A model generated the notes under the pieces. The model saw nothing but the letters and a program-made list of their open reading frames with translations. It had not been told where the DNA came from and made no database searches. From assembly GCA_016191015.1 (NCBI GenBank), contig JACPPM010000211.1, positions 1-55,796 on the forward strand: DNA of 55,796 nucleotides, written 5' to 3'. This document shows, in pieces, positions 2,639 through 52,824 of this stretch. Position numbers and translations under genes: made by a program. This DNA is from Acidobacteriota bacterium. GTDB lineage: Bacteria; Acidobacteriota; CAIWXX01. Each line of letters opens with the position of its first letter. Position 1 is the stretch's first letter.

Positions 2639-2828
2639 ACAGCTGGAATCCTGCACCCTTGCTTATGCTAACATCGGATCGGCAACGGATCACCTGGCTC
2701 AGGCATGAGAATCACACGGAAACACGAGGAAGCGCGAACGACAGTGATTCGGCGCAGGCGTGCGGGGGAGGGCGTCCCGGCCACCTATTATGGTCCTGTG
2801 CGCCCCCGGTGAGGAGGGAGATGACGGT

Positions 2829-3521: not shown

Positions 3522-3583
3522 CTCAAAATGGCAGGTGCGGTTCCCATCCTCCTCCACGATCCGATCGTGGGTGAGGGCGTATC

Positions 3584-4453: not shown

Positions 4454-4493
4454 TATCTCACGCCACCCCTGGATCTGTAAGAGGAGAGTATCC

Positions 4494-8590: not shown

Positions 8591-8668
8591 CTCAACCCCC
8601 TTTCAGAGAATGCTGCCTTCCCCCTCGAGCTTCTCGTGATTCCTTGCAACGCATCAACTTCAAGCACA

Positions 8669-10333
8669 CTAGAGAGGCGAAAAGATCCGAGGGATCACAT
8701 TTTCCCTATCATACCGCTTCTGGATGGTTCGTACCATTTCGCCGGCGAAAGCTAGCGACGCGATCGCGAAGGTCGTGGCCCCGCGCTTCACCGCATCCTC
8801 CAGACTGACAACCTCCAGACCCGTAACCACCTTGCCTTGGAGCCGCGGATCCCGGTCTACGAGGTAGAGAACCTCGATCCCGCGCGCGAGGATCTCTCCG
8901 ACCATGATCCGTCCGGCTTCGCCGGCTCCGTACACGACAACGCCGTCGATGCCGTCCTTGCGAAGCCTCTCGGCAACGGCAGCAAGCCTCCGCTGCATGT
9001 CCTGCTTTGGGGCCGGTGCGAGGGGGCTCGTCCCGCCCAAAAAGGCGCAGATATCAGCACAGAGCGCGCGGCCGCGGGCGTGACGATCAAGCGGGGCAAT
9101 CGGCCCATGTTCAACAGCATTTTGGCAGAGGGATACGAAGCGATCGACGGATTCTGTCGCGGAACAGTCTCTGGCAACGGCCACCCGTCCGCGCTCGCCG
9201 AGAGCGCACCTCTCATCGTCACCCATTGTAAGGATCCGGATCATCGCGTCAGCGAGATCGCCGGCGCGATTCGGATGAACCAGCAGACCCGCACCCGATC
9301 CCGTCATCAACTGATCGTGACCCGATTGAGAGGGGGCGATAACCGGGGTCCCGAGAGCCATCGCTTCGATCACGGTATGTGTCTGGCCACCGGCCACCGC
9401 GGGGGCAACAACCCCCCGAGCAGCCTCGACCATCGGGTAGAGTCGTCGCCCCTCCTGAAAACCGTGATAGTGGATATGGCTGCGAAACCCGCCTGACTGG
9501 TCGAGCAGAGCCTCCCATGAGCCCTGATTCAGACCGACCAGATGGATGTGGGCGTCGGGGCACTCGGAGAAGACCCGTGGAAGCGCATCCGCCAGGACAT
9601 GAGCCCCATTCACTCGACTCAGCGGCCCGACGAAAAGCAGGCTCCGTTGATTCCGGATTCCCGTGTCGGTACACCAGGCAGTGTCCCACTCGTCGCGGGC
9701 AGGATCGATCACGGCTGGAGGGGGGATGATCGGCACATGCAGGCCCAGCATTTCGTGCAGTCGCCCTGCGAGCAGAGAGTTTGGCGCATACTGATAAGAG
9801 GCGGTGCGGAGAGCAGCACGCTCGAGCATCTCCGCAACGCTGTCCATGCTTGTCTGCGACAGGCCGTAGGACTGGCGCACCAGCGCGAGGTCGCGATCAA
9901 ACCGAGCTATCATGGGCACGGGCAGGTCAACGAACAGTCCGCTGAACCGAGCGCTGGTTACGTGGATGACGTCGTAGGGACGGCGGGAATGTGCGCTCTC
10001 GAGCGATTCGGCGACGCTCATCGCCGCAGCGAGTCCCTCTCTGATCTCGAAGACGACGGGAAGACGATCGAAATCGGTCGTCTCGTTCGTCATGGGACAT
10101 CCAATGAGGCGGCAGCCGTGTTTCCGGATACCCTCAGAATCGCGGCTCAATTCGTTTTCAGACGCGCAGAGGAAAATGTCGCACGTATGCCCCCGTGTTG
10201 TGAGGAGGCTGGCCATGTGTTGCACATAGCGGCCCAATCCCCCAAAGAAGCCGCATTCAGCGATCTCACTGGTCACGAACGCGACGTGCATCGGGGATCT
10301 CACAACATTCGCTGCGGATTCTGTCTGAGCCAT
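8669..10333 (-). CDS. Family 4 glycosyltransferase with C-terminal Rossmann-like module
   Basis: This 554-residue protein is built like the GT4 at 5774-7456: a GT-B N-lobe (FVTSEIAECGFFGGLGRYV), a C-lobe with VIEAMALGTPVIAPSQSG, and from about residue 466 the module VVVYGAGEAGRIMVGE, LYLVDRDPRLQGK and FAIASLAFAGEM. The two GT4s are clearly paralogous but diverged. The start is uncertain: the ATG at 10,333 overlaps the end of asnB by 34 bases, while the ATG at 10,291 lies just after its stop and begins at MHVAFVTSE, the usual first strand. Neither has a strong ribosome site. Confidence 0.8.
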   Translation of the reverse strand: MAQTESAANVVRSPMHVAFVTSEIAECGFFGGLGRYVQHMASLLTTRGHTCDIFLCASENELSRDSEGIRKHGCRLIGCPMTNETTDFDRLPVVFEIREGLAAAMSVAESLESAHSRRPYDVIHVTSARFSGLFVDLPVPMIARFDRDLALVRQSYGLSQTSMDSVAEMLERAALRTASYQYAPNSLLAGRLHEMLGLHVPIIPPPAVIDPARDEWDTAWCTDTGIRNQRSLLFVGPLSRVNGAHVLADALPRVFSECPDAHIHLVGLNQGSWEALLDQSGGFRSHIHYHGFQEGRRLYPMVEAARGVVAPAVAGGQTHTVIEAMALGTPVIAPSQSGHDQLMTGSGAGLLVHPNRAGDLADAMIRILTMGDDERCALGERGRVAVARDCSATESVDRFVSLCQNAVEHGPIAPLDRHARGRALCADICAFLGGTSPLAPAPKQDMQRRLAAVAERLRKDGIDGVVVYGAGEAGRIMVGEILARGIEVLYLVDRDPRLQGKVVTGLEVVSLEDAVKRGATTFAIASLAFAGEMVRTIQKRYDRENVIPRIFSPL

Positions 10334-12111
10334 TCGTCCAGGAACACCAAGAGCCAGATCGGATTTGGGTTGCCACTGTCGACAATTTCCAGGACGCCTT
10401 CGGGCCGCAGGAGCGCGAAAAGAGGCGACTGGGGATCGGAAAGCCGCTGTCGAACTTCACCGTGGAGGATACCGCCGGGTGCGAACCACCTCTGCAGGGG
10501 GACTCCGAAGCCCATCTTCGGCCGATGGACGAAGTCCTCGGGATAGTATCGCTGGAGAAGCTTCTTGAGGAGGAGCTTGCCTGCGAATTGCCCCGCACCG
10601 TCCCGTGCGATGCTCAAGTCTTCCGGGATCGTAGCGGCGAATTCGAACACCTTCGCGTCGACAAGCGGGGTCCGGACTTCGAGTCCGTGCATCATGCTCG
10701 CGGTATCGACCTTCGTGAGAATCGAGAATGGAAGGTAGGTATGGATATCGAGGGCCTGCGCGATGTGGGCGGGCGTGGAGCCGCGCGCTGCCGAGAATGC
10801 CCGTTCGAATGTCTCGAGGGGCTGGTCCACCACATCGCGGTACTCCGGACGCCAAAGCGCCCGGCGTTGCGAACGCGTTGTCTGCTGTTTGAGAGCCAAC
10901 CAGCTCGGCAGACTTGGCCTGTTCGGGAATGCGCGCTGCTTCCAGGCAGGTTGATCATCCTGGTTGATCCATCGTCTCCACGTCGAATAATCGTTGTAGC
11001 CACCGAACGCTTCGTCTCCACCATCTCCAGAGAGAACCATGGGGACCTCGCGGCGAGCGAGTCGGCTGAGGTAATAGGTCGGCAACGCTGAGCTGTCCCC
11101 GAAGGGCTCGCCATAGTGCTTGACGAGCGATGGTAGGAGTCCCAGGCAATCCGCTCGCACAACCTCTACCCGGTGGGAAGCGTTCCACCGGCCTGCTGCG
11201 ATCTCCGCATACCGGACCTCGCTGAATTCCTCCTCATCGAACCCAATTGTGAAGGCCCGCACCGGCTCGTTGAGGATCTGCGTCATATAGGCCAGGACGC
11301 AGCTGGAATCGATTCCGCCTGAGAGGAAAGCCCCAAAAGGCACATCGGAAACTAGGTGAGCACGGACCGAATCCCTGAGGACGTCGTCGAGTCGATCCAG
11401 CCATTCGGCTTCCGTCCACGCGTGATTGGGCCGGAATTCGACTCGCCAATACTCTCGTGGGCCCTCAGTACGGCCGTCGAACCGGAATGTGATGCTGTGG
11501 CCCGGGGGCAGCTTGTAGACACCTCTGTAGGCAGTCTTCGGAGCGGGGATGTACTGAAGACAGAGATACTGGTCGATAGCGCGAAGATCCAGCTCCGACG
11601 GGAATCCCGGGACGCAGCGCAACGACTGGAGCTCGGAGCCGAAGGCGACGCAACGATCGTTGATCAGGTAATAAAGAGGCTTGATGCCGAGATGATCGCG
11701 TGCGAGGAAGATCTTCTGCTCCGGATTGCTGACCAGGGCGAAGGCGAACATCCCTCGGAATCGGTCCACGCACCGTTCGCCCCATTGCTCGTACCCATGC
11801 ACGATGACTTCAGTGTCCGAATTCGTGCGGAATTGATGACCATGCGCGATGAGCTGACGCCTCAGCTCCCGGAAGTTGTAGATCTCACCGTTGAACGTCA
11901 CCCAGACTTGTCCGTCCTCATTCGAGATCGGCTGGCGGCCCCCTGCCAAATCGATGATCGCCAGCCGGCGGTGACAGAGGCCCGTACCTCCCATCAGCTC
12001 GATACCCTCCCCGTCCGGCCCACGGTGAGCCAAGGCCTTGGTCATGGCGCCAAGAACCTCCGACGACACTTCGGTCCCGTCGATCGCAACCAGCCCGGCG
12101 ATGCCGCACAC
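10300..12111 (-). CDS. asnB: Asparagine synthase (glutamine-hydrolysing) family amidotransferase
   Basis: The 603-residue protein opens with MCGIAGLVA, placing the nucleophilic Cys at position 2 of a class II glutamine amidotransferase domain. HRRLAIIDL and FNGEIYNF are further Ntn-domain landmarks. The synthetase domain has the PP-loop SGGIDSS near residue 264 and a GDGGDEAFGGY loop. The family uses glutamine and ATP to amidate a carboxylate. Inside a glycan operon it may amidate a uronic acid or attached amino acid rather than make free asparagine, but this is inference. It is the first gene of the minus-strand operon and has its own promoter and a leader with a tandem palindromic repeat. 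Confidence 0.88.
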   Translation of the reverse strand: MCGIAGLVAIDGTEVSSEVLGAMTKALAHRGPDGEGIELMGGTGLCHRRLAIIDLAGGRQPISNEDGQVWVTFNGEIYNFRELRRQLIAHGHQFRTNSDTEVIVHGYEQWGERCVDRFRGMFAFALVSNPEQKIFLARDHLGIKPLYYLINDRCVAFGSELQSLRCVPGFPSELDLRAIDQYLCLQYIPAPKTAYRGVYKLPPGHSITFRFDGRTEGPREYWRVEFRPNHAWTEAEWLDRLDDVLRDSVRAHLVSDVPFGAFLSGGIDSSCVLAYMTQILNEPVRAFTIGFDEEEFSEVRYAEIAAGRWNASHRVEVVRADCLGLLPSLVKHYGEPFGDSSALPTYYLSRLARREVPMVLSGDGGDEAFGGYNDYSTWRRWINQDDQPAWKQRAFPNRPSLPSWLALKQQTTRSQRRALWRPEYRDVVDQPLETFERAFSAARGSTPAHIAQALDIHTYLPFSILTKVDTASMMHGLEVRTPLVDAKVFEFAATIPEDLSIARDGAGQFAGKLLLKKLLQRYYPEDFVHRPKMGFGVPLQRWFAPGGILHGEVRQRLSDPQSPLFALLRPEGVLEIVDSGNPNPIWLLVFLDEWLRQNPQRML

Positions 12112-39985: not shown

Positions 39986-40378
39986 TCAGACCAGCTCGAT
40001 CCGTGCTCGGTGTCCCCCAGCGCGGGCCAGGCGCCGGTCGCGAGTGAGCAACGGCGCGTCGAGCGCCTCGGCCAAGGCGACGTAGACAGCATCGTAGGCC
40101 GTGAGATTGCCTCGCATCTCCCAGACCCGCGGCAGAAGGATGTCGTGGGGATACCGAGTGAGCGGCAAGTCAGCCAGATCGGATAGCGCCGCACGGCACC
40201 GCGCCGCGCTCACATCTCCTGTGCCTGCGTAGCGGCGAAGTACTTGCGCGACCTCGACATCGATCAGGTGAGGTGCATGCAGCGTCTCCCCGAGGCCGAA
40301 CAGCCGTACGTCGACGGCCGCGGCGGCAGGTGTACGCAGCAGCAGCTCGAGCACGGCCGAGGCATCTACAACCGTCAC
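39986..40378 (-). CDS. vapC: VapC-type PIN-domain toxin
   Basis: The 130-residue PIN ribonuclease has the four acidic positions visible: Asp5 in VVDASAVLE, Glu in DVEVAQVLRR, Asp in YDAVYVALAE and Asp in LLTRDRRLA. It cleaves RNA when not bound by its antitoxin. Its GTG start overlaps the antitoxin stop (GTGA), so the two are translationally coupled. Confidence 0.87.
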   Translation of the reverse strand: MTVVDASAVLELLLRTPAAAAVDVRLFGLGETLHAPHLIDVEVAQVLRRYAGTGDVSAARCRAALSDLADLPLTRYPHDILLPRVWEMRGNLTAYDAVYVALAEALDAPLLTRDRRLARAGGHRARIELV

Positions 40379-40605
40379 CGGCCGTTGCGCTCTTCCCGAA
40401 CGGCCTTCGCCGGGGAAACGGACGGCGTGACAACTGAACGACCCGCCAGTCGCGCGCGGAGGTCCTGAAGGGTCGGCCGCTCGGCCGTGAGGCGGATCTC
40501 ATTCAGCAGGTAGTCAGAGAGGGACATGCCAGCCATCGCGGCGCGAGCCTTGAGGCGGCGGTGCAGCTCGGCGGGGACATTCCGGATCTGGATCATGCCT
40601 GACAT
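40375..40605 (-). CDS. vapB: VapB/FitA-like ribbon-helix-helix antitoxin
   Basis: The 76-residue protein has an N-terminal ribbon-helix-helix, MIQIRNVPAELHRRLKARA then GMSLSDYLLNEI, and a C-terminal toxin-binding tail. The start is either ATG 40,605 or ATG 40,596. The predicted transcription start falls at about 40,605, so the message may be leaderless, which favours the first ATG. It binds VapC and probably represses its own promoter. Confidence 0.82.
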   Translation of the reverse strand: MSGMIQIRNVPAELHRRLKARAAMAGMSLSDYLLNEIRLTAERPTLQDLRARLAGRSVVTPSVSPAKAVREERNGR

Positions 40606-40640
40606 GTGTACAACATAAAAGCATGTGCTACGCATGTCAA
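40600..40640 (-). promoter_or_regulatory. vapBC promoter with overlapping inverted-repeat operator
   Basis: On the minus strand TTGACA (40,640-40,635), a 17-bp spacer and TATGTT (40,617-40,612) form a strong promoter. An 11-bp inverted repeat with one mismatch, TGACATGTGTA at 40,600-40,610 against 40,629-40,639, brackets it, covering the -35 box and the start site. Ribbon-helix-helix antitoxins typically bind such sites, so this is the probable autoregulatory operator. Confidence 0.7.
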
Positions 40641-42244
40641 GCACACAGTCGCATTTGTCTCCGGCGTCCTCCGAATGCGCAGGCGATGAGGAAGGCGCTG
40701 GATGCGAGGTAGTAGAGGAAATATCCCTGGTCGCCTGCAGCGCTGGTCGCACCCATGAAGTCGAGAAACGGCACCTGGTTCATCGGTCCGATGTACCAGA
40801 GGAGCGTGTAGAGCACCTCGAAGAGCTTACTGCTGCCACTCCAGACGCCGAGAGCCAGCGCCATGCTCGGCACGAACAACGCGCCGGTCACCCAGGCCGC
40901 GAGGCTCATCCAGTCTCCGCCTCTGATGTTCCCGATGGCTGTGCCGCACCCTGTGAGGACCATGACGGCGATCCCCGCCAGCAAGCTCGCCGGAAATTGC
41001 CGCCACAGAGCGCCGGGAGAGGAGAAGACGAGCAGGCCGGTTTCGTGCTGCTCCTCGCGACAGCCGAGGGATGAGAGGATGGTGATCGGCCAGATCCACG
41101 CGAAGGGGAGAATCCACTGCCGCGAGATATTGGCGGGCGCGGCGAGGCAGGCGATGAGAAGGCCCGCGGATACGATGTACCACCACCGGGAGCGTCCCGT
41201 CAGCGCGAGCCGGATTTCGGCCGCGACCATCCGGGAAAGGTGGAATGCCTTCGCCTCCGGATGAAGCGGGGAAAGATGCGAATGCCGCGATGGGGGCGGA
41301 ATCTCCTCGGCCGGATCCACGCCGCCGTTCTCGGGGCTCAGGCGCTTGACTCGCGCCGACTCGCGGGACGGGTTGAATCTGTCGAAGAAGAATGCTGCGA
41401 TCAGGGCCAGAAGCGCGCCTGCGACGAGCCAGGCGAACCGGGCAAGCAGGATCCCGGCGCTCCACTCGACCCCTTCCCACCGGAACGTTGTGGCGATCCG
41501 CTCCTTTTCCAGGATGCTGTAGCCGATATTGACGTCGGTTTCCTTGTAGTCCGGGTAGACCCGCTTGCAGCTTTCGATCATGCTGTTCAGCGGCACGGAC
41601 ACGCCGAGCGGATCGGCGAGAGCCTGCCAGGTGCCGAACAACGATGTCGTCATCGCGCCGGTGGCCAGGATTGACATCCAGAGAAAGAAATACGCCACGT
41701 TTCCGAAGCCGCCGCGCAGCCAGCTGATCGTCTCGAAGAGGACGGCCAGAGCCGCCACGAACGCCAGCCACGGCAGCGTGATGAGAAGAAAGGGCGAGAG
41801 GAGCGGCCAGAGACGCACCTGCATGTCCTCGCCACGGACGAGCTGCATGACAAGCGCCACGACGGCGAGGACCAGCACGATGGCACTCAGGACGGCGAGG
41901 TTGCTGAGCGTCTTGCCGACGGTGTAGAGAGCGCTGCTCATCCGAGTCGTCGCCAGAATCTGGCCGACACGCGTCGTCCGGTCTCGATCGACCGCGCCTT
42001 TCACCAGGTAGAAGCCGGCCAGTGAGAGGAACGCGCTCGTCATCAGTGCGACCGTGCTCCCCATCCAGGCCGAGTTGTATACGCCGCGGTGGGTGCCGAG
42101 CGCGACTGTCAGATAATGGGCGTCAGGGGGCGGGACAAACGTGTAGCCGACGTATGCCGTGATGGCGAGAGTGATCAGGAAGCTGTATCGGCGTGTCCGT
42201 TCGAGAAAGTCGGCGCGTCCGATCTGGTAGAGCAGGCGGATCAC
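40637..42244 (-). CDS. ABC-2 type transporter permease
   Basis: The 535-residue protein has about ten to twelve hydrophobic segments, for example FLITLAITAYVGYTFV near the N-terminus, LAVLSAIVLVLAVVALVM and FAWLVAGALLALIAAFFF, with a hydrophilic break of about 60 residues in the middle. It appears to be two fused six-helix permease halves. It is translationally coupled to the ATPase gene (overlap 42,241-42,244). The substrate is unknown; bacterial relatives export lipids, peptides or act in membrane stress. Its 3' end overlaps the vapBC -35 box. Confidence 0.8.
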   Translation of the reverse strand: MIRLLYQIGRADFLERTRRYSFLITLAITAYVGYTFVPPPDAHYLTVALGTHRGVYNSAWMGSTVALMTSAFLSLAGFYLVKGAVDRDRTTRVGQILATTRMSSALYTVGKTLSNLAVLSAIVLVLAVVALVMQLVRGEDMQVRLWPLLSPFLLITLPWLAFVAALAVLFETISWLRGGFGNVAYFFLWMSILATGAMTTSLFGTWQALADPLGVSVPLNSMIESCKRVYPDYKETDVNIGYSILEKERIATTFRWEGVEWSAGILLARFAWLVAGALLALIAAFFFDRFNPSRESARVKRLSPENGGVDPAEEIPPPSRHSHLSPLHPEAKAFHLSRMVAAEIRLALTGRSRWWYIVSAGLLIACLAAPANISRQWILPFAWIWPITILSSLGCREEQHETGLLVFSSPGALWRQFPASLLAGIAVMVLTGCGTAIGNIRGGDWMSLAAWVTGALFVPSMALALGVWSGSSKLFEVLYTLLWYIGPMNQVPFLDFMGATSAAGDQGYFLYYLASSAFLIACAFGGRRRQMRLCA

Positions 42245-43125
42245 GCTGCGACCCCGTTGCGGCTCGCGGATACCCAGTACAGATAGGCGTCTTCCAGAGT
42301 GGGCGTGGTCGGCTGAGCTGCGCTGGCCGGCGCTTCATCGGCAACGACGCGCAAGTGCACACCATCACCCCGCCTGATCGCACCGCTGATGAGGTACTTC
42401 TCTTTCGCGGCACGCACGTCGGTGCTCGCGACTACCCACTCCCAGGCTTTGCCATCCACGCTGTTGAGCAGCTCCTCAGGGGTGCACTGCCTCACGAGCC
42501 TCCCTTTGTTGATGATCGCAATACCGGTGGCGGCCGCCTCGACGTCCGAGACGATGTGAGTCGAGAGGATGATGATACGTTCCCCCGACAGCTCCGAAAG
42601 CAGGTGCCTGAAGCGCACGCGTTCCTCGGGATCGAGTCCGACGGTGGGCTCGTCCACAATCAGCAGCGCGGGATCATTGAGGAGCGCCTGGGCGATCCCG
42701 ACGCGCTGTTTCATGCCGCCGGAGTAGCCGCCGAGGGCCTTTTGCGCAACCCCGCTAAGGTTCACGACCTCAAGCAGCTCCGCAATGCGCCGTCGTGCGA
42801 CGGCACCATCGAGTCCGCGCGCCGCCGCCAGATACTCGAGGAACTCAACCGCGCTCAGGTTCGGGTAGATACCGAAATCCTGCGGGAGGTACCCGAGGAC
42901 CCGCCGCAACGCGTCTGGTGACGCCGCGATGTCGGCGCCGTCCCAGGTCACCTTTCCGGATGAAGGAGACGTGATCGTGGCGAGAATTCGCATGAGCGTG
43001 GATTTGCCGGCGCCGTTTGGCCCGAGCAGACCGAGGATTCCCGGGCGCACCTCCAGGCTGAACTCGCGCAAACCCCAGACGTTCCCCCTGTAGACCTTCG
43101 AGACCCGCTCAATTTTCAACTCCAC
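42241..43125 (-). CDS. ABC transporter ATP-binding protein
   Basis: The 294-residue protein has Walker A GPNGAGKST, the Q-loop YLPQDFG, signature SGGMKQR and Walker B LLIVDEPTVGLDPEE with the H-loop ILSTHI. A C-terminal 60-residue tail follows the ATPase. It drives the downstream permease. Order ATPase then permease is the common one for ABC-2 exporters. Confidence 0.88.
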   Translation of the reverse strand: MELKIERVSKVYRGNVWGLREFSLEVRPGILGLLGPNGAGKSTLMRILATITSPSSGKVTWDGADIAASPDALRRVLGYLPQDFGIYPNLSAVEFLEYLAAARGLDGAVARRRIAELLEVVNLSGVAQKALGGYSGGMKQRVGIAQALLNDPALLIVDEPTVGLDPEERVRFRHLLSELSGERIIILSTHIVSDVEAAATGIAIINKGRLVRQCTPEELLNSVDGKAWEWVVASTDVRAAKEKYLISGAIRRGDGVHLRVVADEAPASAAQPTTPTLEDAYLYWVSASRNGVAA

Positions 43126-43277
43126 GCCGCCTCCTCAACTCCCCGGAAATCATGGACAGACTAACAGACGAAGTCGGCGGACGTCTTGTTCCCGTTTTTC
43201 GACGCAGAAACCCCGAGGTGCGGAATGCTCATGTGCATGGGCATGCATCGGGGTTGCCCAATGAGCCTGGCATTGAC

Positions 43278-43297
43278 GGCGCGGCATGGGCCGCGCC
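43278..43297. repeat. GC-rich perfect hairpin
   Basis: Two 8-bp arms, GGCGCGGC and its complement, flank the loop ATGG. It lies in the 43,126-43,717 gap between the divergent ABC-transporter and lanthipeptide genes. No U-tract follows, so a terminator role is unlikely. The rest of the gap holds the conserved element at 43,396-43,522 and no gene I can recognise. Confidence 0.5.
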
Positions 43298-43395
43298 CTC
43301 CCGATCCGGCGTGCGAGTCTGGGGGGAGGAGGCGACGCTTCTGCGCCGCCCTGCACAAACGCCTTGTGGCGAACTTGGGGCCCGTCGAGACACCT

Positions 43396-43522
43396 AGCGA
43401 AGATTCCTTCCCCCCCGAGACAAATGTACTGTGATGGCGGCGACAGGAGTGCACAATATTCACGAGCCGCTCGTGCACTTCACGTGGGGATGGTTGAGCT
43501 CCTGGATCAGCCAGAGCGTGAA
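43396..43522 (+). promoter_or_regulatory. Conserved intergenic element, copy 1, upstream of the lanthipeptide exporter
   Basis: The left block (AGCGAAGATTCC, then ACAAATGTACTGTGATGG and CGGC) and right block (AGCCAGAGCGTGAA at 43,509-43,522) recur in the same order and spacing at 50,297-50,421. Between the blocks, copy 1 has CACGAG-CCG-CTCGTG within a longer AGTGCA/TGCACT stem. The hairpin sequence differs between copies but a hairpin is kept, which suggests a structured RNA leader or a protein-binding element. Confidence 0.65.
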
Positions 43523-43717
43523 TGACCGGCCGGCCCTCGCATCCCCTCTTTCGAGGGGCTCGCGTCCCCTCCCTGGAGGCTGTTCCCTCAGGGGGATTCG
43601 TCTGATCTTCTGTTGGAGCAAAGCGCAGATGCAGAATACCCTGGCCATAGGTGGACCGTGCCGCCGGCCGTCTACGCCGGTCGGAGTACGGCGCCTCGTC
43701 GCCCGGGTGCCCTGGCT

Positions 43718-46027
43718 ATGAGGCGCCGCCGGGTCCCCTGGGTCGTCCAGATGGGCGTGGCCGACTGCGGGCCGGCCTGCCTGGCCATGATCCTGGCCTA
43801 CCACGGCCGGGACACGGTGCTCGAAGACATCCGGGAAACGATGGGTACGGGACGCGACGGCGCCTCGGCGCTCGCGATCCTCGAGGCCGCGGGGCACTAC
43901 GGACTGCAGGCCCGTTGTCTCCAAGTCGACAGTCCGTCTCATCTCCGGGCCCTTCACCTCCCCGCCATCGTGCATTGGAACCACAGCCACTTCGTCGTGC
44001 TGGAGTGCTGGTCGGCGCAGGGAGCGATAGTGGTGGATCCCTCCTTCGGCCGCTGCGAGATGACGGCCGGGGAGTTCGCGGCCGCCTTCCAGGGGATCGT
44101 CCTCGAACTGAGGCCCGCCCCCGGTTTTCGCCCGGTGCGGCGATCGGCCTTCCCGATGGGGCGATATCTGCGCCACCTCCTGAGCGAGCGCCGGCTGGTC
44201 GGTTCGATCATGCCGGCATCCCTGGCCCTGCAGCTCATCGGCCTGACCCTGCCGGCCGTGATGGCACTGGTCGTCGACAGGGCAATCCCGCAGCGATCGA
44301 TCGGGATGCTGGCGGGTGTGGGCCTGGGTCTGGCAGCACTGGTCCTGGCGCAGGGGTCGATCGCACTCACTCGACAGTGGCTCCTCAGCACGCTTCACGC
44401 GCGCGTCGATCGAAGCATGATGCAGCAGTTTTTCGACCGCCTGCTTCGGCTGCCCTACAGCTTCTTCCAGGCACGCGCCAGCGGCGACCTGCTGATGCGC
44501 CTGAACAGCAATCTGTATGTCCGGGAGGTTCTGTCGACCCAGGTTCTCTCGACCGTGCTCGACGGCCTGCTCGTCGTCATCTATCTGGGACTACTTGTGG
44601 CGATGAGTCCCACCATGGCGGCGCTCGCCACCGCTCTGGGCTTGCTGCAGGTGCTGATGACGCTGATCTCAGTGCGCGTGATCCAGGCTCGCGTGCAGAG
44701 AGAGATCATGGCCCAGAGCCGCGGGCAGAGCTACCTGGCGGAAGCGCTTCACGGGATGGCCACGATCAAGGCATGCGGTCTGGAAGAACGGACATACGAA
44801 CACTGGCAGCGGCTCTTCGCTGACCAGCTCAGGGTCACGCTCAGTCGTGAGCGGGCCCAGTGCGTTTCCGGTGCCCTTGCAGGTGCTCTGTCGATGGCGA
44901 ATCCGCTTGTGCTGCTGCTCACGGGCGCGGCCATGGTGTCTCACGGCGACCTCAGCCTGGGTACGATGCTGGGCCTGATCTCGCTCGGCGGAGCGTTCCT
45001 CGCTCCGCTCACAGCGCTCGTGCGTTCGACCGAACAGTTCCAACTGGTCGGCACGCACCTGGCCCGCCTGGAAGACGTCTTTGTCGCCCAGCCAGAACAA
45101 GGAGGACGGGCGCTGCCGGAGGCGTCAGTGCTACGCGGGCACATCTCATTGCGTGGAGTCAACTTCGCCTATTCGCGTCGCTCCCCGGAGGTCCTCCAGG
45201 GAGTGGATCTGGAGATCCACCCGGGCCAGCTCGTGGGGATCGTCGGCCCCTCCGGCTCGGGCAAGTCCACACTCGCGAAGATCATCGCGGCACTCTACGA
45301 GCCGTCGGCCGGAGCGGTTCACTACGACGGCGTGCCGGCTGGACAGGTCAAGCTGCAGTCGCTGCGAAGGCAGATCGGCGTGGTCCTGCAGGAGGTGTTC
45401 CTGTTCAACGATTCCATCCGCAAGAACATCGCGCTCCACGATCCCGACATGGCACTCGACCAGATCAGCCGCGCCGCAATGCTGGCCGCCATTCACGAGG
45501 ATATCCTCCGCATGCCCCTGGGCTACGACACCCATCTCTCCGAAGCCGGGGACAACATCAGCGGGGGGCAGCGCCAGCGCCTGAGCCTCGCGCGAGCCCT
45601 GGCGCACAGCCCCGCCATCCTCATCCTCGACGAAGCCACGAGCGAGCTCGATTCGAGGACCGAACGGATCATCCAGCAGAACCTGACCCCACTCAAGTGC
45701 ACGCGAGTCGTGATCGCGCATCGCTTGAGCACGATTCGGCAGGCCGATCTGATCCTGGTGCTCGACCGCGGCCGGATCGTCGAGCGGGGGAAACACGAGG
45801 AGCTGCTGGCCCTCGACGGACTGTACGCGAGCCTGGTGGCGGAGCAGTCGGGCATTTCGCCGGCTGTTCGGCTTGCTCATAAGCCTGGAAACTGCGGCTC
45901 CGAAAACCGACGGAGCCCGGCCCGCCCCGACGGGCCGCCAAAAACCCGGCCGCGGATTCGGGGGTCCGTGAGCCAATGCACACAAGATCAAGGAGATCAT
46001 CCCAGTGTCCAAAGAACAGATTCGTGA
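43718..46027 (+). CDS. lanT: Lanthipeptide ABC transporter with N-terminal C39 leader peptidase (LanT/PCAT)
   Basis: The 769-residue protein has three parts. A C39 cysteine protease has Cys17 in ADCGPACLA, His in HWNHSHFVVL and Asp in VVDPSFG. A six-helix membrane domain spans about 170-430. The ATPase has GPSGSGKST near 510, SGGQRQR and LILDEATSELD. It would cut precursor leaders after a GG-type site and export the product. Usual family proteins end near the LVAEQSG segment; here about 60 extra, low-complexity residues follow and overlap the first precursor gene by 23 bases. I chose the ATG at 43,718, just before the protease domain; no good ribosome site is visible and an upstream TTG is possible. 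Confidence 0.85.
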   Translation: MRRRRVPWVVQMGVADCGPACLAMILAYHGRDTVLEDIRETMGTGRDGASALAILEAAGHYGLQARCLQVDSPSHLRALHLPAIVHWNHSHFVVLECWSAQGAIVVDPSFGRCEMTAGEFAAAFQGIVLELRPAPGFRPVRRSAFPMGRYLRHLLSERRLVGSIMPASLALQLIGLTLPAVMALVVDRAIPQRSIGMLAGVGLGLAALVLAQGSIALTRQWLLSTLHARVDRSMMQQFFDRLLRLPYSFFQARASGDLLMRLNSNLYVREVLSTQVLSTVLDGLLVVIYLGLLVAMSPTMAALATALGLLQVLMTLISVRVIQARVQREIMAQSRGQSYLAEALHGMATIKACGLEERTYEHWQRLFADQLRVTLSRERAQCVSGALAGALSMANPLVLLLTGAAMVSHGDLSLGTMLGLISLGGAFLAPLTALVRSTEQFQLVGTHLARLEDVFVAQPEQGGRALPEASVLRGHISLRGVNFAYSRRSPEVLQGVDLEIHPGQLVGIVGPSGSGKSTLAKIIAALYEPSAGAVHYDGVPAGQVKLQSLRRQIGVVLQEVFLFNDSIRKNIALHDPDMALDQISRAAMLAAIHEDILRMPLGYDTHLSEAGDNISGGQRQRLSLARALAHSPAILILDEATSELDSRTERIIQQNLTPLKCTRVVIAHRLSTIRQADLILVLDRGRIVERGKHEELLALDGLYASLVAEQSGISPAVRLAHKPGNCGSENRRSPARPDGPPKTRPRIRGSVSQCTQDQGDHPSVQRTDS

Positions 46028-46190
46028 GTGGAAGAACCGCAGGATCGCGAAGACCGACAATCCAGCCGGCGTACGCGAGCTCGACACAACCGAGATGAAG
46101 AAGGTGGCAGGCGGCGCGCCTCCGACCTATCCGGCCCCCATCTGCGCCTTGAGCCTGTACCCCCGCACCCGATGCTACGCCTGTAATTAG
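46005..46190 (+). CDS. lanA1: Lanthipeptide precursor 1, GG leader
   Basis: The 61-residue peptide starts with GTG, preceded by AAGGAGA seven bases upstream, inside the end of lanT. The leader has IREWKNRR, NPAGVREL and ends EMKKVAGG (residues 30-37), a double-glycine cleavage site. The predicted core is residues 38-61, 24 residues with Cys47, Cys57 and Cys60 and Thr41, Ser50, Thr55. With three Cys and three Ser/Thr, at most three rings are possible, and the core is unusually proline-rich at its start. It is positioned directly after the exporter. Confidence 0.82.
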   Translation: MSKEQIREWKNRRIAKTDNPAGVRELDTTEMKKVAGGAPPTYPAPICALSLYPRTRCYACN

Positions 46191-46215
46191 CCTGGTGTAG
46201 GCAAGGAGAATGGCG

Positions 46216-46425
46216 ATGAACAGAGAGACCATCATCCGATCATGGAAGGAACGGGTTCCTGCTGCGGGCACGAATCCGTCGAACCCGGCCGGGGTGAGGG
46301 AGCTGGAGCGCGCTGAGATGCAGCGTGTGTCGGCCGGGCGGGGGACGTTGAACCCCTATTCCTGCCACACGATGAACGACTGCTACAGCCAGATCCTGAT
46401 GACCAACTGTAAGTGGTGCAGCTAG
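46216..46425 (+). CDS. lanA2: Lanthipeptide precursor 2
   Basis: The 69-residue peptide has its ATG at 46,216, seven bases after AAGGAG; an ATG six bases earlier is too close to that site. The leader contains IIRSWKER and NPAGVREL and ends MQRVSAG at residue 41, a GG-like (AG) site. The core is residues 42-69 with Cys50, Cys56, Cys65 and Cys68 and Thr45, Ser49, Thr52, Ser58, Thr63, Ser69. Only leader motifs are shared with precursor 1; the cores have no obvious similarity. Confidence 0.82.
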   Translation: MNRETIIRSWKERVPAAGTNPSNPAGVRELERAEMQRVSAGRGTLNPYSCHTMNDCYSQILMTNCKWCS

Positions 46426-46459
46426 CCGGCTGCCACTCCCGGCCGCGTCTGGGACGAAT

Positions 46460-46517
46460 ACTAGGAACCGAGGGCCTTGTCGCGGCAAGGCCGTCACAAC
46501 CAGAGATGAGAAGAGCA
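46460..46517. other. Gap between precursors 2 and 3 with a small hairpin
   Basis: GGCCTTG-TCGCGG-CAAGGCC forms a seven-base stem in the 91-base gap before the third precursor. It could slow transcription or protect the 3' end of the upstream peptide message. The call is tentative. Confidence 0.35.
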
Positions 46518-46783
46518 TGTCCGAGAACCGAGTCATTCGTGCGTGGAAAGAGAGAGCGCTGCGTCCGACCGAAACTAACGAGATTCCGCAGAACCCGGCC
46601 GGCATGAGGGAGCTCAGCCGCGCTGAGCAGGCCGAGCACACCGGGTCCGGCTTGACGACTTCGACGCCCGGCAGCGGCGCGTGCGTCACTCGGAGGATCA
46701 ACTGGCCCCCGAGTCCAAACGACCCCTGCCCAGTGTTGACCACCGAGAACCATACCTGCGACCTGAAAACGTGCAGGCTCTAG
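46517..46783 (+). CDS. lanA3: Lanthipeptide precursor 3, long core
   Basis: The 88-residue peptide starts at ATG 46,517 with a GAGATGAGAAGAG region upstream. The leader has VIRAWKER, NPAGMREL and ends near HTGSG (residue 45). The core is then about 43 residues, with Cys56, Cys71, Cys81 and Cys86 and eleven Ser/Thr, including the cluster TTST. A second GSG at 52-54 makes the exact cleavage site uncertain. The leader's pre-cleavage residues (AEQAEHTGSG) differ from the VAGG/VSAG of the other two, so processing may differ. Confidence 0.78.
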   Translation: MSENRVIRAWKERALRPTETNEIPQNPAGMRELSRAEQAEHTGSGLTTSTPGSGACVTRRINWPPSPNDPCPVLTTENHTCDLKTCRL

Positions 46784-46833
46784 AATGAAGCTCTAGCGGC
46801 GACGCGCGCCTCTCCGCACGATGAAGCGGACGG

Positions 46834-46863
46834 GGAGGCGGCGGCGGCGCCGCCGCCGCCTCC
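46834..46863. terminator. Perfect 30-bp GC palindrome between precursors and lanM
   Basis: A 15-bp arm and its exact complement meet with no mismatch; the sequence consists almost only of GGC/GCC triplets. Transcribed, it would form a very stable hairpin in the 138-base gap between lanA3 and lanM. No U-tract follows, so it is more likely a partial terminator, pause site or RNase shield that keeps precursor mRNA in excess over lanM mRNA. Confidence 0.6.
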
Positions 46864-46921
46864 TCGATCGACCGAGCCTGTGTGAACCACAAGTAGCCAC
46901 TCTGACTGGAGTGCCACCGCC

Positions 46922-49900
46922 ATGACTACCAGCACCGCACCCGCTCTCTCGTTGCTCTGGGATCGCGCCGCGTATCTGCACGAGGCCCGAGACGGGGCCG
47001 CATTGTCATCCACTGGAAGCACCGATGCGACGCGGGTCGACGAATGGAAAGCCGCTGGATTCCTGGACGACGCGATGCTGTCCCGGAAGTTGGACGGCCT
47101 GGGCTTGGATCGCACCGCGTTCGCGCGCCTCATCTCGGCCCGGCCTTCCTTCGAGTACTGCGACGAATCGGCGGAGTGCGAGGTGTATTGGGAGCGGCCG
47201 GACGCCGGGGCACCTGGGTGGCAGCAGATTCTCTGGGCAATCCTGCAGGAGTGGGATCGCCGGATGGAATCGGCGGATGCCGAACTGTTTGCGTCCGGAG
47301 ATTTTGTGGGCACGTTGCGACCGTTTGTGAACGGGGCGTGGAGCCGCCTGAGGGCACTCATGCCGGCTTTGCCGGCCGGCTTGACGATCGACCTGGATGC
47401 CGTGGGCGCACAGGTGAGGCGTGTGCTTGCGCTGAGACTTCTGCGAGTCTGCCAGCGAACATTGGTTCTCGAGCTGAACGTGGCGCGACTGGATGAACGG
47501 CTGCGCGGCGCGACCCCGGACGAACGCTACCACGATTACGTGGATCGCCTGTTGGCGGCCCCGGGCGAGTGGAGGCGGATCTTCAGTGAATATCAGGTGC
47601 TGGGGCGGCTCATCGGTGAGTACATCCTACGATGGCTCGAATCCACAGCCGAGCTGCTCCAAAGACTGGCGGCGGACTGGGAGGCGCTGGGCCGCCGGAT
47701 CCTGCAAACTCAGTCGGAGATGCGTCTGGTGGCGGTCACAGGTGGGTTGTCGGACGAGCATCGGGGCGCTCGCACTGTCTGGATTCTATCTCTCGCCCCG
47801 GGCATCGACGACGCGACACCGCCACTTCGCATTGTCTACAAGCCCAAATCGCTCGCACTCGACGCTCATTTCAATGCCCTGCTGCATTGGTGCAACGACC
47901 AGTTCGAGCGCGATTCCACGGTACCCCCCGCCTCCGCAGACGTCCCGCCGTTTCGCCTGCTCCGGCTGATCGATCGCGTGGACTATGGGTGGATGGAGTG
48001 CGTGGCCCGCGCCGACTGCGCTTCGCGCGAAGAGGCGGCTCGATTCTACCGCCGGCAGGGAGCGTTCCTGGCGCTCTTGTACTTTCTGCGCGGCACCGAC
48101 ATGCACAGTGAAAACCTGATCGCATGCGGCGAGCACCCCATGCTGATCGACCTCGAGACCCTGCTCCAGCCACGCATTGAGTTGCCGCCTGACACCAGCG
48201 CCACCGGTGCGGCGCAGCGCCTGATCGGTGAATCGGCCCTGCGTGTGGGGCTGCTGCCCCAGTGGTCGTGGGGCGAGGGGCGCGACCAGGGAGTCAATGT
48301 GGCCGGGCTGGGCAACGGCGGCCCACAGATGACGCCCTACGAGATTCCGACCTGGGAGGACATGGGAACCGACCTGATGCATGTCGTCCGGAAGAAGCGT
48401 CCGATGCCCGAGTCCGAAAACCTGCCTGGCATCGGCGGTGTGACGGCGGCGGTCACGGACTACGTCGACGACCTCATCGTGGGGTTCGAATCGACCTGCC
48501 GCATGTTCATGCGGAATCGCGCGGCCCTGCTGGCACCCGAGGGCCTCCTGCAGGGCTTCGCGAGCGATCCTGTCCGCTTCGTCGCACGCGCCACGGCCCA
48601 ATACTCGAAATTGATCGAGGACGGGTATCATCCCGACAACCTGCGCGATGCTTTTCATCGCGACCAGCTTTGCGACGTGCTCTGGACCTTCAGCCGGGGG
48701 AGCGCTCTGCACGAGCGTCTGATCGGATCGGAGCAGGAAGACCTGCGCGCCGGAGATGTACCGTACTTTTCGACGAGCCCGAGGGGCCGAGATGTCCTCG
48801 ACAGCCACGGCCGGAGTCTCCCGGATATCTTCCCGACAAGCAGCCTGGAGCTGTGCCACGCCTGGCTGCAGCAGCTCGATGAAGCTTGTCTCCAGCAGCA
48901 GCTCTGGATCATCCGGGCCTCGCTGGCATCCATCTCCACGAGCCGGCATGTGGCGTCGACCGCCGCAGAGAGCGACAACAGCAGGCCCGCCGCTGCGAGC
49001 GCCGTCCCGCTTCACTGCAGCGCCGATGAGTTGCTGCGCGATGCGCTCCTGAGCCAGGCCGTGCAAATCGGCGAGACTCTCATGATCTCGGCCATTCAGG
49101 GCGAGGATGACGCCGTCTGGCTTGGACTCAACCATGCGGGCGAGGAGCGTTGGAGCCTCGGACCGGTCGGCTACGACCTGTACGACGGCACGGCTGGAAT
49201 CGCCGTGTTTCTGGCTTGGCTCGGCGACCTCACAGCCGACGACCGGGCGACCGCATTGGCGCGCCGTGCCCTGCGCGGGGTCCTCCGCAGGATCGATGAA
49301 GAAGGCGGCGCCAACCTGGGCGGTTTCTCGGGGCTCTCTTCTGCTCTCTACGCCCTGTCGCTCCTGGGAAGCCTGTGGGAGGATGAATCGATCGTCCACG
49401 AGATTGGACGGAGGCTGGACAGGGTCGAGTCCGCGGTTTCTGTGGACCGTGTCTACGACATCATCGCGGGCTCGGCGGGCACCATTGGTGCGATGCTGGC
49501 CGTCCACAGTGTCACGGGGCTCGAAGCGGCGCTCCGGATCGCCCTCGCCTGCGGCCGAAAGCTGGACGCCGACGCCACGGTAACGGTTCAGGGCAGCGGG
49601 TGGCGGGGGGTTGACACCGCGCGGCCCTTGCTGGGATTCTCGCACGGAACGGCAGGCGTCGCCTGGGCACTGCAGCACCTCGCGGAGGCTGTCCGGCGTC
49701 ATTCCGATGGGGAGGGCGCGAGATCCGCGGTGGGTTTCGAGGAGCGGGCCGGCGCGGCGCTAAAATATGAGCGGTCGCACTACGATCCGGTTCGCCGCAA
49801 CTGGCCGGATTTCCGCGATTTCGCTGCCGCCGGGTTGCTGCCACCTGGTGGCGCGCAGCCCTTCATGAGTGCCTGGTGCCACGGCGCGCCCGGGATCGTC

Positions 49901-50287
49901 CTGGCCCGGGCCACCGCACCGGCACGCTTCCGCGACCACAGCGCGCAGCTCGAAATTCGGATCGGCGTCGAGACCACATTCCGCACGGGAATGGGCATCA
50001 ACCATAGCCTCTGCCACGGAGACCTTGGCAATCTGCTGGCAATCGAATCGGCCGTGGCACTGGGTGAGAGTGAGGACTGGCCGGATCGGGTTCGCGCCGG
50101 GACGTGGCGGGTCCTTGACGAGATCCGCGATCGTGGCCCGCGTTGCGGAGTTCCACTCGGCCATTTCACACCGGGACTGATGACGGGCTTGGCGGGCATC
50201 GGCTATGGCCTGCTTTCGCTGTGCTCACCCGACCGGTTGCCAAACTTGCTGGCCCTTCAGCCGTGGCACAGAGGAGAGGGGCGGTGA
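46922..50287 (+). CDS. lanM: Class II lanthipeptide synthetase LanM
   Basis: The 1121-residue protein has an N-terminal DUF4135 dehydratase domain and a C-terminal LanC cyclase domain. In the first, VYKPKSLALD and TDMHSENLI (Asp393, His395, Asn398) followed by LIDLET give the kinase-like phosphorylation/elimination site. In the second, the zinc ligands are Cys986 (WCHG) and Cys1031-His1032 (LCHG), with SHGTAGVAWAL upstream. It phosphorylates and eliminates Ser/Thr of the precursor cores and closes thioether rings. The dehydratase and cyclase motifs are all intact. It lies 138 bases after precursor 3. Confidence 0.93.
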   Translation: MTTSTAPALSLLWDRAAYLHEARDGAALSSTGSTDATRVDEWKAAGFLDDAMLSRKLDGLGLDRTAFARLISARPSFEYCDESAECEVYWERPDAGAPGWQQILWAILQEWDRRMESADAELFASGDFVGTLRPFVNGAWSRLRALMPALPAGLTIDLDAVGAQVRRVLALRLLRVCQRTLVLELNVARLDERLRGATPDERYHDYVDRLLAAPGEWRRIFSEYQVLGRLIGEYILRWLESTAELLQRLAADWEALGRRILQTQSEMRLVAVTGGLSDEHRGARTVWILSLAPGIDDATPPLRIVYKPKSLALDAHFNALLHWCNDQFERDSTVPPASADVPPFRLLRLIDRVDYGWMECVARADCASREEAARFYRRQGAFLALLYFLRGTDMHSENLIACGEHPMLIDLETLLQPRIELPPDTSATGAAQRLIGESALRVGLLPQWSWGEGRDQGVNVAGLGNGGPQMTPYEIPTWEDMGTDLMHVVRKKRPMPESENLPGIGGVTAAVTDYVDDLIVGFESTCRMFMRNRAALLAPEGLLQGFASDPVRFVARATAQYSKLIEDGYHPDNLRDAFHRDQLCDVLWTFSRGSALHERLIGSEQEDLRAGDVPYFSTSPRGRDVLDSHGRSLPDIFPTSSLELCHAWLQQLDEACLQQQLWIIRASLASISTSRHVASTAAESDNSRPAAASAVPLHCSADELLRDALLSQAVQIGETLMISAIQGEDDAVWLGLNHAGEERWSLGPVGYDLYDGTAGIAVFLAWLGDLTADDRATALARRALRGVLRRIDEEGGANLGGFSGLSSALYALSLLGSLWEDESIVHEIGRRLDRVESAVSVDRVYDIIAGSAGTIGAMLAVHSVTGLEAALRIALACGRKLDADATVTVQGSGWRGVDTARPLLGFSHGTAGVAWALQHLAEAVRRHSDGEGARSAVGFEERAGAALKYERSHYDPVRRNWPDFRDFAAAGLLPPGGAQPFMSAWCHGAPGIVLARATAPARFRDHSAQLEIRIGVETTFRTGMGINHSLCHGDLGNLLAIESAVALGESEDWPDRVRAGTWRVLDEIRDRGPRCGVPLGHFTPGLMTGLAGIGYGLLSLCSPDRLPNLLALQPWHRGEGR

Positions 50288-50296
50288 GCGAGGCGA

Positions 50297-50421
50297 AGCG
50301 AAGATTCCGGCCCGCTCGGGACAAATGTACTGTGATGGCGGCTCTTGAGGGCATCCATGCCCTCCTGCCGTCCGTGTACGGCACGGGGAGGTGATTCACC
50401 CGAGAGAAGCCAGAGCGTGAA
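50297..50421 (+). promoter_or_regulatory. Conserved intergenic element, copy 2, upstream of the M4 protease
   Basis: This copy matches 43,396-43,522 at both ends: AGCGAAGATTCC, a CAAATGTACTGTGATGG block, CGGC, and AGCCAGAGCGTGAA at 50,408-50,421. The middle has a perfect hairpin GAGGGCAT-CC-ATGCCCTC and a second (TGCCGT...ACGGCA), unlike the middle of copy 1. It lies between lanM and the protease gene, in the latter's leader. Confidence 0.65.
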
Positions 50422-50483
50422 AGTCCATTCGACTGAACAATTCACCATGTCTTGGTCCACAACACTAACCGGAGGAGATCGAT

Positions 50484-51956
50484 TTGAAGATTACTCGTTG
50501 TTTCGCCGTCACAGCAGGCGCGGCGGTTCTGTCCTGGGCATTCGCTGCACGGGCCGATGCTGCAAGCCATGCGATTCACAATCCCGCCACGGCGGCGTTT
50601 GCCGTCGACCAGCTCCAGGCCCGGACCGGCTTGCCGGCGAGCGAGTTCGAATCATGGAAGACGCTCTATGACCCCCAAGTCGGCAAATCACACGTCAGGC
50701 TTACGCGGTCGTACAAAGGCCTGCCCGTGACCGGCGGCGACGTCGTGGTCCACCTCGACGCTGACGGCACGTATCTCGGGATGAGCGGTCGCGCAACGCG
50801 ACTCGACATGGATGTCACGCCTAAAGTGAGCGCCGACCGGGTGGTATCGATTGCGGCCGCGAAGCTCGGGAAGGCTGGCTCTCCGACATCCGAGCTGAAG
50901 ATCTGGATCACCGAGGATGGCACGGCGCACCTTGCGTGGCAGGTCGTTCTCAGCGATCTCTCCGGCTCCGAGCCCTACAAGCACACATACATCGTCGACG
51001 CGAAGACCGGGAATGTCGTCCTGGATTTCGACAGCCTCGAGACTTTGAACGGCACCGGCCGGGGCTATCACAATGGCAACGTCACGATCACGATCACAAG
51101 GAGTGGGGCAAGGTACTATTTGCGAGACCTCACTGCGCGCAACTTCGACACGGCAAACGACCTGGGGTACATCTTCAGTAGCACAACGAGGACATTTGGC
51201 AACGGAAGCTACACGACCACCAGCACAAACGGAGCGGACGTTCACTACGGGTTGATGAAGACATGGGACTACTACGAAGATACCTTCGGTCGGAGCAGCT
51301 ATGATGGTGCAGGAACCTATTTCCCCGCCTTCGTCTACCGGTACGGTACCGGCTATGTCAACGCCTATTGGGCAACCGGCGACGGCTACCTTGTCTTCGG
51401 CGATGGTTCGATTGATGATGGCTACTACCCATTGACGTCCCTCGACGTGGTCGGGCACGAATTCAGCCATGGCGTGTGCGAAACCAGCGTGCCGGGCGGG
51501 TTGAGGTACGTGAGGCAGTCCGGAGGCATCAACGAGGGCAACTCCGACATCTTCGGGACCATGGTCGAATGCTACGCTGGAAACGCCAGCGACCCGTGCG
51601 ACTGGACGATCGGCGAGAAGGTCGTGTCTCCGTACTTGCGCAACATGTCAGATCCCCCCGCCGACGGCGCCTCAATCGACAACTTCAGCGATTACACCGA
51701 CGGTCTCGATGTCCATTACTCGAGTGGGATAGTCAATAAATTCTTCTATCTGCTCTCCGACGACGCCGTATACGGTATCGGCAGCGATGCCGCGGCGGCC
51801 ATCTGGTACCAGGCTCTGACCAACTACTTCGTGAATGCCGAAACGTTTGCAGACGCACGCACGGATACATTGCAGGCAGCTCAGGATCTCTACGGCGCCG
51901 CATCAGCGGAATACAGCGCCGTCGGAGATGCCTGGGACGATGTCGGCCTCCACTAG
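50484..51956 (+). CDS. Secreted thermolysin-family (M4) metalloprotease
   Basis: The 490-residue protein has a signal peptide (MKITRCFAVTAGAAVLSWAFAARA), an FTP/PepSY-type propeptide (about 30-180) and an M4 catalytic domain: HEFSH with His325, Glu326 and His329, a GGINEGNSD zinc-ligand Glu near 350 and a DVHYSSGIVNK catalytic His. The start is TTG at 50,484, after GGAGGAG. As an extracellular protease beside a lanthipeptide cluster it may finish leader removal, as with other two-step class II lanthipeptides, but this is inference. A strong terminator follows. Confidence 0.85.
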   Translation: MKITRCFAVTAGAAVLSWAFAARADAASHAIHNPATAAFAVDQLQARTGLPASEFESWKTLYDPQVGKSHVRLTRSYKGLPVTGGDVVVHLDADGTYLGMSGRATRLDMDVTPKVSADRVVSIAAAKLGKAGSPTSELKIWITEDGTAHLAWQVVLSDLSGSEPYKHTYIVDAKTGNVVLDFDSLETLNGTGRGYHNGNVTITITRSGARYYLRDLTARNFDTANDLGYIFSSTTRTFGNGSYTTTSTNGADVHYGLMKTWDYYEDTFGRSSYDGAGTYFPAFVYRYGTGYVNAYWATGDGYLVFGDGSIDDGYYPLTSLDVVGHEFSHGVCETSVPGGLRYVRQSGGINEGNSDIFGTMVECYAGNASDPCDWTIGEKVVSPYLRNMSDPPADGASIDNFSDYTDGLDVHYSSGIVNKFFYLLSDDAVYGIGSDAAAAIWYQALTNYFVNAETFADARTDTLQAAQDLYGAASAEYSAVGDAWDDVGLH

Positions 51957-51973
51957 ATCGCACCCACAGAAAG

Positions 51974-51998
51974 ATGGCGGGCCACCCCGGCCCGCCAT
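51974..51998 (+). terminator. Rho-independent-type terminator after the M4 protease
   Basis: A perfect 10-bp stem (ATGGCGGGCC and its complement) encloses the loop ACCCC and is followed by TTTCACTTT. It starts 18 bases after the protease stop, so the unit ends here. Confidence 0.7.
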
Positions 51999-52044
51999 TT
52001 CACTTTCAGGAAAGGTCCGCGATTCCGCTGTCGCGGCCGCGTCG

Positions 52045-52824
52045 TCACGCGTCTTCGATTCTGAAACTGAATTCGGCCCGCCCGATCGGAAACCCGCCGT
52101 CCGAAAAGCTCCGCTCCTCGAACCAGACCATGCCGTCCCTCTCGACAATCACGACCGACGATGACCGTGTGCCGTAGAGCTTCGTGGTGACGAAGATCGG
52201 TGCGAGCACTCGTTCACGCTCCAGCCCGACGCCCGTGTCGGGGAGCAGCCGGTCTGGCGGGATGTCCCGTTCGGCCAGGGTCGAGAAGAGCGATTCCGCA
52301 ATCTCTCCCGGCTCTGAGAATCGATCGAGTGTCCGTCGCACCGCCTCCTTCCCGCGCACGACCTTCGGCCACGGATCGTCGAGGAACCCGTTGCTGACCG
52401 CATAGATTCCGTCGCCCAGTGCCACGGGAGAACCGGACCTGTTTGAGCAGTAAGCGAGCCCCAACCGATCACGCGCCACCAGGCAGAAGCCGGCATAGCC
52501 CGTCGTCCTTCCGCGAACTTCTTTCAGGTATTCGGTGGCGGGTTGGGCGCAGAGAAGAAAGTCGCGAACCAGCAGCCCACGCGAGGGGGCGTCTGGGCGT
52601 GGCGACTGCGGCTCTCTGAAATTCGTCACCGCCGCAAAACGCCCCTCGCGGGTCATGCCCATCCAGGTTCCTCGACTCTGAAGATCCCGACCGGCCAGAA
52701 TCGTTGGCGCGTCAGACCAGAAAGCAGCAGCCTGCGTGGGACGGCAGTAGAATTCGTCCCGGTTGGCAGCCACGACCAGCTCGTACCGAGGATGCGTCCG
52801 ATGGGAAACGATGATCAAGCACAC
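52045..52824 (-). CDS. NRDE/TANGO2-like protein
   Basis: This 259-residue protein has the family hallmark ANRDEFYCRPT, ILAGRDL, GTWMGMT and VTNFREP. Eukaryotic and bacterial TANGO2-like proteins begin Met-Cys with the Cys at position 2 of an Ntn-like fold. Starting at the GTG at 52,824 places Cys at position 2 (MCLIIVSH), so I prefer it to the ATG three codons upstream. In other organisms the family is linked to heme or lipid handling; the role here is unknown. It is convergent with the M4 protease. Confidence 0.82.
   Translation of the reverse strand: MCLIIVSHRTHPRYELVVAANRDEFYCRPTQAAAFWSDAPTILAGRDLQSRGTWMGMTREGRFAAVTNFREPQSPRPDAPSRGLLVRDFLLCAQPATEYLKEVRGRTTGYAGFCLVARDRLGLAYCSNRSGSPVALGDGIYAVSNGFLDDPWPKVVRGKEAVRRTLDRFSEPGEIAESLFSTLAERDIPPDRLLPDTGVGLERERVLAPIFVTTKLYGTRSSSVVIVERDGMVWFEERSFSDGGFPIGRAEFSFRIEDA

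Follow-up and report, generated by a model that had tools for sequence, protein, structure and literature searches.

The window (the whole stretch of DNA analysed, 55,796 nucleotides, which is contig C162 of a 6.43-Mb Acidobacteriota genome of 349 contigs) contains a locus in which lanT, the genes for three precursor peptides (A1, A2 and A3), lanM and a gene for an M4-family protease follow one another in this order on the plus strand. With a LanM, a C39-ABC exporter and leader-bearing precursors, A3 scoring over and A1 and A2 under the TIGR03898 cut-off, the locus belongs to the class II lanthipeptide clusters. The M4 gene follows lanM directly, 196 nt downstream, and copies of a ~125-nt element lie upstream of both lanT and the protease gene. 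The features are as follows.

43396-43522, plus strand: element copy A, before lanT (BLAST, genome search)
43613-46027, plus strand: lanT, C39 peptidase-ABC exporter (C39 and ABC domains; the ATG at 43718 may be the true start)
46005-46190, plus strand: precursor peptide A1, GTG start (mersacidin/lichenicidin-family leader, below cut-off)
46210-46425, plus strand: precursor peptide A2 (mersacidin/lichenicidin-family leader, below cut-off)
46517-46783, plus strand: precursor peptide A3 (TIGR03898, 31.6 bits, above the 23.5 cut-off)
46922-50287, plus strand: lanM, class II lanthipeptide synthetase (TIGR03897, 866 bits)
50297-50421, plus strand: element copy B, between lanM and the protease gene (BLAST, genome search)
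50471-50477, plus strand: GGAGGAG, likely ribosome-binding site of the protease gene (judged from the sequence)
50484-51956, plus strand: M4 (thermolysin-family) zinc metalloprotease zymogen, secreted-type, 490 aa, TTG start
50643-51020, plus strand: propeptide region with FTP (aa 54-103) and PepSY (aa 114-179; below the Pfam cut-off)
51051-51947, plus strand: catalytic domains Peptidase_M4 and Peptidase_M4_C (aa 190-488; Pfam)
51456-51470, plus strand: HEFSH zinc-binding/catalytic motif (H325, E326, H329; alignment)
51534-51536, plus strand: third zinc ligand, E351 (alignment; role presumably as in thermolysin)
51714-51716, plus strand: catalytic histidine, H411 (alignment; role presumably as in thermolysin)

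The stretch from lanT up to the M4 gene (window 43613-50287) shows no gene for a HlyD adaptor. On the minus strand, divergent from lanT, lie genes for an ABC ATPase and an ABC-2-like membrane protein (window 40637-43125), which may serve immunity or form an unrelated transporter; the same strand carries two small overlapping genes (window 39986-40752) that by eye resemble a VapC-type toxin and its antitoxin.

In Pfam searches, the M4 open reading frame matched FTP (residues 54-103, E 3.8e-14), PepSY (114-179, E 6.7e-5, slightly under its cut-off), Peptidase_M4 (190-332, E 2.7e-31) and Peptidase_M4_C (339-488, E 2.6e-47). The matches that place it in family M4 (PF01447, PF02868 and PF07504) all exceed their cut-offs, and Pfam detected in it only M4-type domains, with neither an S8 match of the LicP/CylA type nor an M61 domain of the MfuP type. 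Across an alignment of 18 sequences, H325, E326, H329, E351 and H411, which make up the HEXXH motif, glutamate ligand and catalytic histidine of M4 enzymes, are invariant, and the active site aligns with that of thermolysin, from which we take these residues to have their zinc-binding and catalytic roles. The nearest solved relatives by sequence are thermolysin (E 4.6e-44) and neutral protease (E 3.2e-43). An AlphaFold2 model built from the 18-row alignment (mean pLDDT 83.5, pTM 0.64) matched thermolysin-family structures in Foldseek with E values down to 1.3e-24 and best TM scores by target of ~0.83-0.85, at only 28-37% identity to the solved M4 enzymes. As judged from its sequence, the protein is a complete zymogen in which every zinc and catalytic residue is present, bearing out the first-pass annotation of a secreted thermolysin-like protease directly after lanM. 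Its N-terminus is hydrophobic and, by eye, Sec-signal-like, and we infer that the protein is exported via Sec. (A candidate lost specificity residue near DGASIDN was dropped; the Ala is also present in the nearest relative, L101, at a column that is variable.)

When the region before the protease gene was compared with the window by BLAST, the sole other significant match was the region before lanT: copies A and B agree in 93 of 128 columns (73%, E 7e-13), and their unbroken matches measure 23, 14 and 12 nt. The likeness is not due to chance; among 19,865 pairs of window segments of equal size drawn at random, no common run exceeded 14 nt, against 23 nt here. A search of both strands of the window places the 12-mer, the 23-mer and the 13-mer GCCAGAGCGTGAA only in copies A and B; with up to 3 mismatches allowed, the 23-mer matches twice in the entire genome and its reversed control not at all. 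BLAST of the 125-nt copy against the genome returned the copy itself, its partner (E 3.3e-11) and a 24-nt match at E 0.015. None of the 395 further genomes of the phylum that were searched contains the 23-mer, even with up to 3 mismatches allowed, and an element 22-mer had no match in viral contigs. The first-pass annotation had noted an element common to lanT and the protease; the element is stronger evidence than an annotation drawn from the window alone could know.

Each copy stands before a gene that runs in the same direction, and the two form direct repeats 6.9 kb apart that bracket the lanT-lanM block. The distance from the start of the second conserved block to that of the third is 91 nt in copy A and 89 nt in copy B, and clustering into blocks as tight as that observed arose in just 565 of 100,000 column shuffles. 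This clustering at near-constant spacing, with diverged sequence in between, argues for function rather than recent duplication. Because neither copy contains a sigma-70-type promoter match (43100-52200 scanned), the nature of the element is something that we infer: it probably holds a promoter or operator and perhaps includes a structured 5' leader. Rfam at gathering thresholds found no family in the window. Folding gave z-scores of -0.99 (A) and -3.11 (B) for the trimmed copies, and of 0.14 and -0.80 for the full copies of 127 and 125 nt; the best folds have no common architecture, and the outer helix of B costs A 2.9 kcal/mol. The two conserved strands of that helix paired with at least the observed energy in 205 of 5,000 shuffles, a weak result given that the blocks were chosen after inspection, and two copies make an analysis of covariation impossible. 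(Hidden coding in the element was dropped by eye; aligning the copies takes gaps of 1 and 2 nt, and in the frame opening with ATGTACTGT one of them soon meets a stop codon.) Because the element is restricted to these two genes in the genome, common control of lanT and the protease is likely, and is the conclusion about the pair that the sequence supports best.

M4 proteins occur in 124 of 396 genomes of the phylum (E <= 1e-10; nearest 41% identical), in agreement with the initial caution that such enzymes are common as general secreted proteases, and 95 records of unrelated plasmids carry them too; a search of further genome contigs gave one weak match, in an Elusimicrobia MAG. The gene described here is the single strong M4 gene of its genome, where one other M4-like match is barely significant (27.1 bits). 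The same genome has 13 S8 matches, so other exoproteases could also process the exported peptides. On contig C131, it also carries a second LanM remnant (L071, G000:C131, 1692-1982), a DUF4135 piece only in an open frame of 186 aa, followed by a radical-SAM gene (2658-4019) and an ABC exporter (4016-5668); a 1,175-aa S8 subtilase with Ig-like domains is encoded on the other strand (7795-11322).

The first-pass annotation had looked to conservation of the protease beside homologous clusters; the clusters compared lack it, which is one half of the refuting observation that the annotation named. A search with the LanM profile PF13575 was positive in 25 of the 396 genomes, and in 6 and 35 genomes of two class-level samples (93 and 148 genomes, overlapping the 396). 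Split matches were merged by hand and the C131 remnant was left out, giving 71 LanM loci in other genomes (29 + 42). None of these 71 loci, whose LanM proteins are distant homologues (22-40% identical in their best segments), has a PF02868 match within 10 kb; the closest M4 gene sharing a contig with lanM is ~20 kb away (G397:C28). Similarly, tblastn with the M4 protein of the window gave no match in the 49 of the 71 lanM neighbourhoods that were examined, which reach at least 5 kb downstream of lanM in 39 cases and on both sides in 34, some contigs being short. LanM matches 187 plasmid records; in 10 plasmid clusters that were opened, whose gene tables are incomplete, no M4 or other annotated secreted protease lies near lanM, and one has an annotated 'peptidase E'. 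Conversely, no LanM was found in 20 regions around relatives of the M4 protein, in all of which the M4 gene was seen; five have a weak LanT match, to the ATPase part only. In G001, a genome of the same family, searches for the LanM domain, the M4 protein and the 23-mer were all negative. As the LanM proteins compared are only distant homologues, a recent lineage-specific recruitment of the protease remains compatible with these counts and may have taken place. A protease of another family may stand beside lanM in some relatives: a motif scan of neighbouring open reading frames (HExxH, GTSxS and, in one set only, HxxEH) found HExxH outside lanM at, for example, L047:17692, L174:453 and L179:18411, and GTSxS at L051:17993 and L166:2550. 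(One genome of the phylum, G501, has six separate lanM genes, on contigs C143, C45, C141, C126, C156 and C42.)

The precursors bear on what the protease could cut. Against the 23.5-bit cut-off of TIGR03898, the mersacidin/lichenicidin leader family, A1 scores 19.4, A2 19.2 and A3 31.6 bits, and four precursors tested from other clusters of the phylum score 42-72 bits. The alignment of the precursors displays the NPAG and GG-type region common to the family, and with C39 sites assumed by eye from this alignment, the first Ser, Thr or Cys falls at position 4 in A1, 3 in A2 and 2 in A3. The six-residue stub that precedes the first modifiable residue in LicP/CylA-type systems is absent from all three, which argues against the proposal that the protease trims residues left after C39 cleavage. 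A cut inside the modified core, of the kind made by MfuP, is possible. The presumed cores contain hydrophobic residues, presumably sites that a thermolysin-like enzyme could use; the specificity of such enzymes is broad.

Taken together, these results lead us to favour, with moderate confidence, the view that the M4 protein is an accessory exoprotease, specific to its lineage and linked to the lanthipeptide regulon. We prefer it because M4 proteins are frequent in the phylum and unlinked to lanM and the precursors have no stub, and because the zymogen is intact and the element is restricted to lanT and the protease. On this reading, the protease would be exported by Sec and would free itself from its propeptide outside the cytoplasm, and the element on both units would tie its transcription to that of a lanT-A1-A2-A3-lanM operon. 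The enzyme would then appear extracellularly alongside the exported lanthipeptides, where it might serve the same antagonistic response by breaking down released leaders or proteins from inhibited competitors, in an accessory role rather than as an obligatory maturation step. Such joint induction has a precedent in Lysobacter gummosus, whose LanM genes rose together with those of three M4 proteases (PMC10745450).

Adjacency and a common element are also expected of a dedicated maturation protease, and these two observations keep the first-pass suggestion of a maturation role plausible, even as the other lanM loci and the precursors speak against it. We consider it rather unlikely, if well worth entertaining, that the M4 protein is a second processing enzyme that trims N-terminal residues or cuts the modified core after LanT cleavage and export, giving active products. 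The gene follows lanM directly, shares its element with lanT alone and encodes the only strong M4 protein of the genome, and the hydrophobic core residues could serve such an enzyme; however, its presumably broad specificity might destroy the core, and relatives with the same leader family do without an M4 protease. Clustered two-step systems nevertheless exist, with LicP and CylA and, as a metalloprotease variant, MfuP as precedents (PMC10885120). A bolder form, doubtful in our estimation, is that this would be the first M4-family protease dedicated to maturation in a class II cluster, the duplicated element, possibly a structured leader, matching export and extracellular finishing through one signal. 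Still more improbable is an ordinary nutritional secreted protease that is a chance neighbour, its expression unlinked and the element a relic of local duplication or recombination: M4 enzymes are common in the phylum and on plasmids, their neighbourhood is not conserved and direct repeats around lanT-lanM could be a trace of recombination, but the matching positions sit in spaced blocks instead of uniformly, both copies precede genes of the same orientation and the 23-mer has no further copy in the genome.

Should the protease indeed complete the peptides, the families known to mature lanthipeptides would gain M4 as a member and, with it, a tool enzyme that is easy to produce. If, as the accessory-exoprotease reading has it, it does not, the unique promoter-region match would show a general exoprotease tied to an antibiotic-type peptide operon. 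Either way, a neighbouring position in a single genome counts for little as evidence of a role in maturation.

Comparison with known systems sets the locus apart in several respects. The part considered here of a review (PMC10885120) treats metalloproteases of families M1, M16, M61, M103 and M50, and the words thermolysin and bacillolysin do not occur in that part; 'M4 family', thermolysin, bacillolysin and PF02868 are likewise absent from the main text of a network study of unclustered lanthipeptide proteases (PMC8960859), and the titles and abstract openings of literature pairing M4 or bacillolysin with lanthipeptides name no M4 lanthipeptide protease. In the class II two-step cases that the review describes, the C39 cut leaves a six-residue stub that a second protease removes, as do the clustered S8 proteases LicP for lichenicidin and CylA for cytolysin (PMC10885120). 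The cluster described here resembles these in its secreted zymogen beside LanM and a C39 exporter and in its mersacidin/lichenicidin-type leaders; unlike them, it has an M4 enzyme with a putative cleavage role, its precursors have no such stub, and related clusters lack the protease. Mersacidin, with a GDMEAA stub that has no counterpart in A1-A3, is matured by the general S8 protease AprE (PMC10885120), a case that shows how a general type of exoprotease can finish an exported class II peptide. MfuP, from a class II cluster of Myxococcus fulvus, likewise pairs a zinc metalloprotease with a C39 exporter, but it belongs to M61 and is shown to cut inside the modified core (PMC10885120), whereas cleavage by the M4 protein is putative. 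Cyanobacterial plasmid clusters of Trichormus and Dolichospermum share LanM (34-38% identical), a C39 ABC exporter and a mersacidin/lichenicidin-family precursor with the window; they have HlyD and lack a protease gene, whereas the reverse holds here. In domain order, active site and predicted fold, the enzyme is like thermolysin, bacillolysin and pseudolysin, and it differs from them in that its gene lies in a lanthipeptide locus and shares an upstream element with the exporter.
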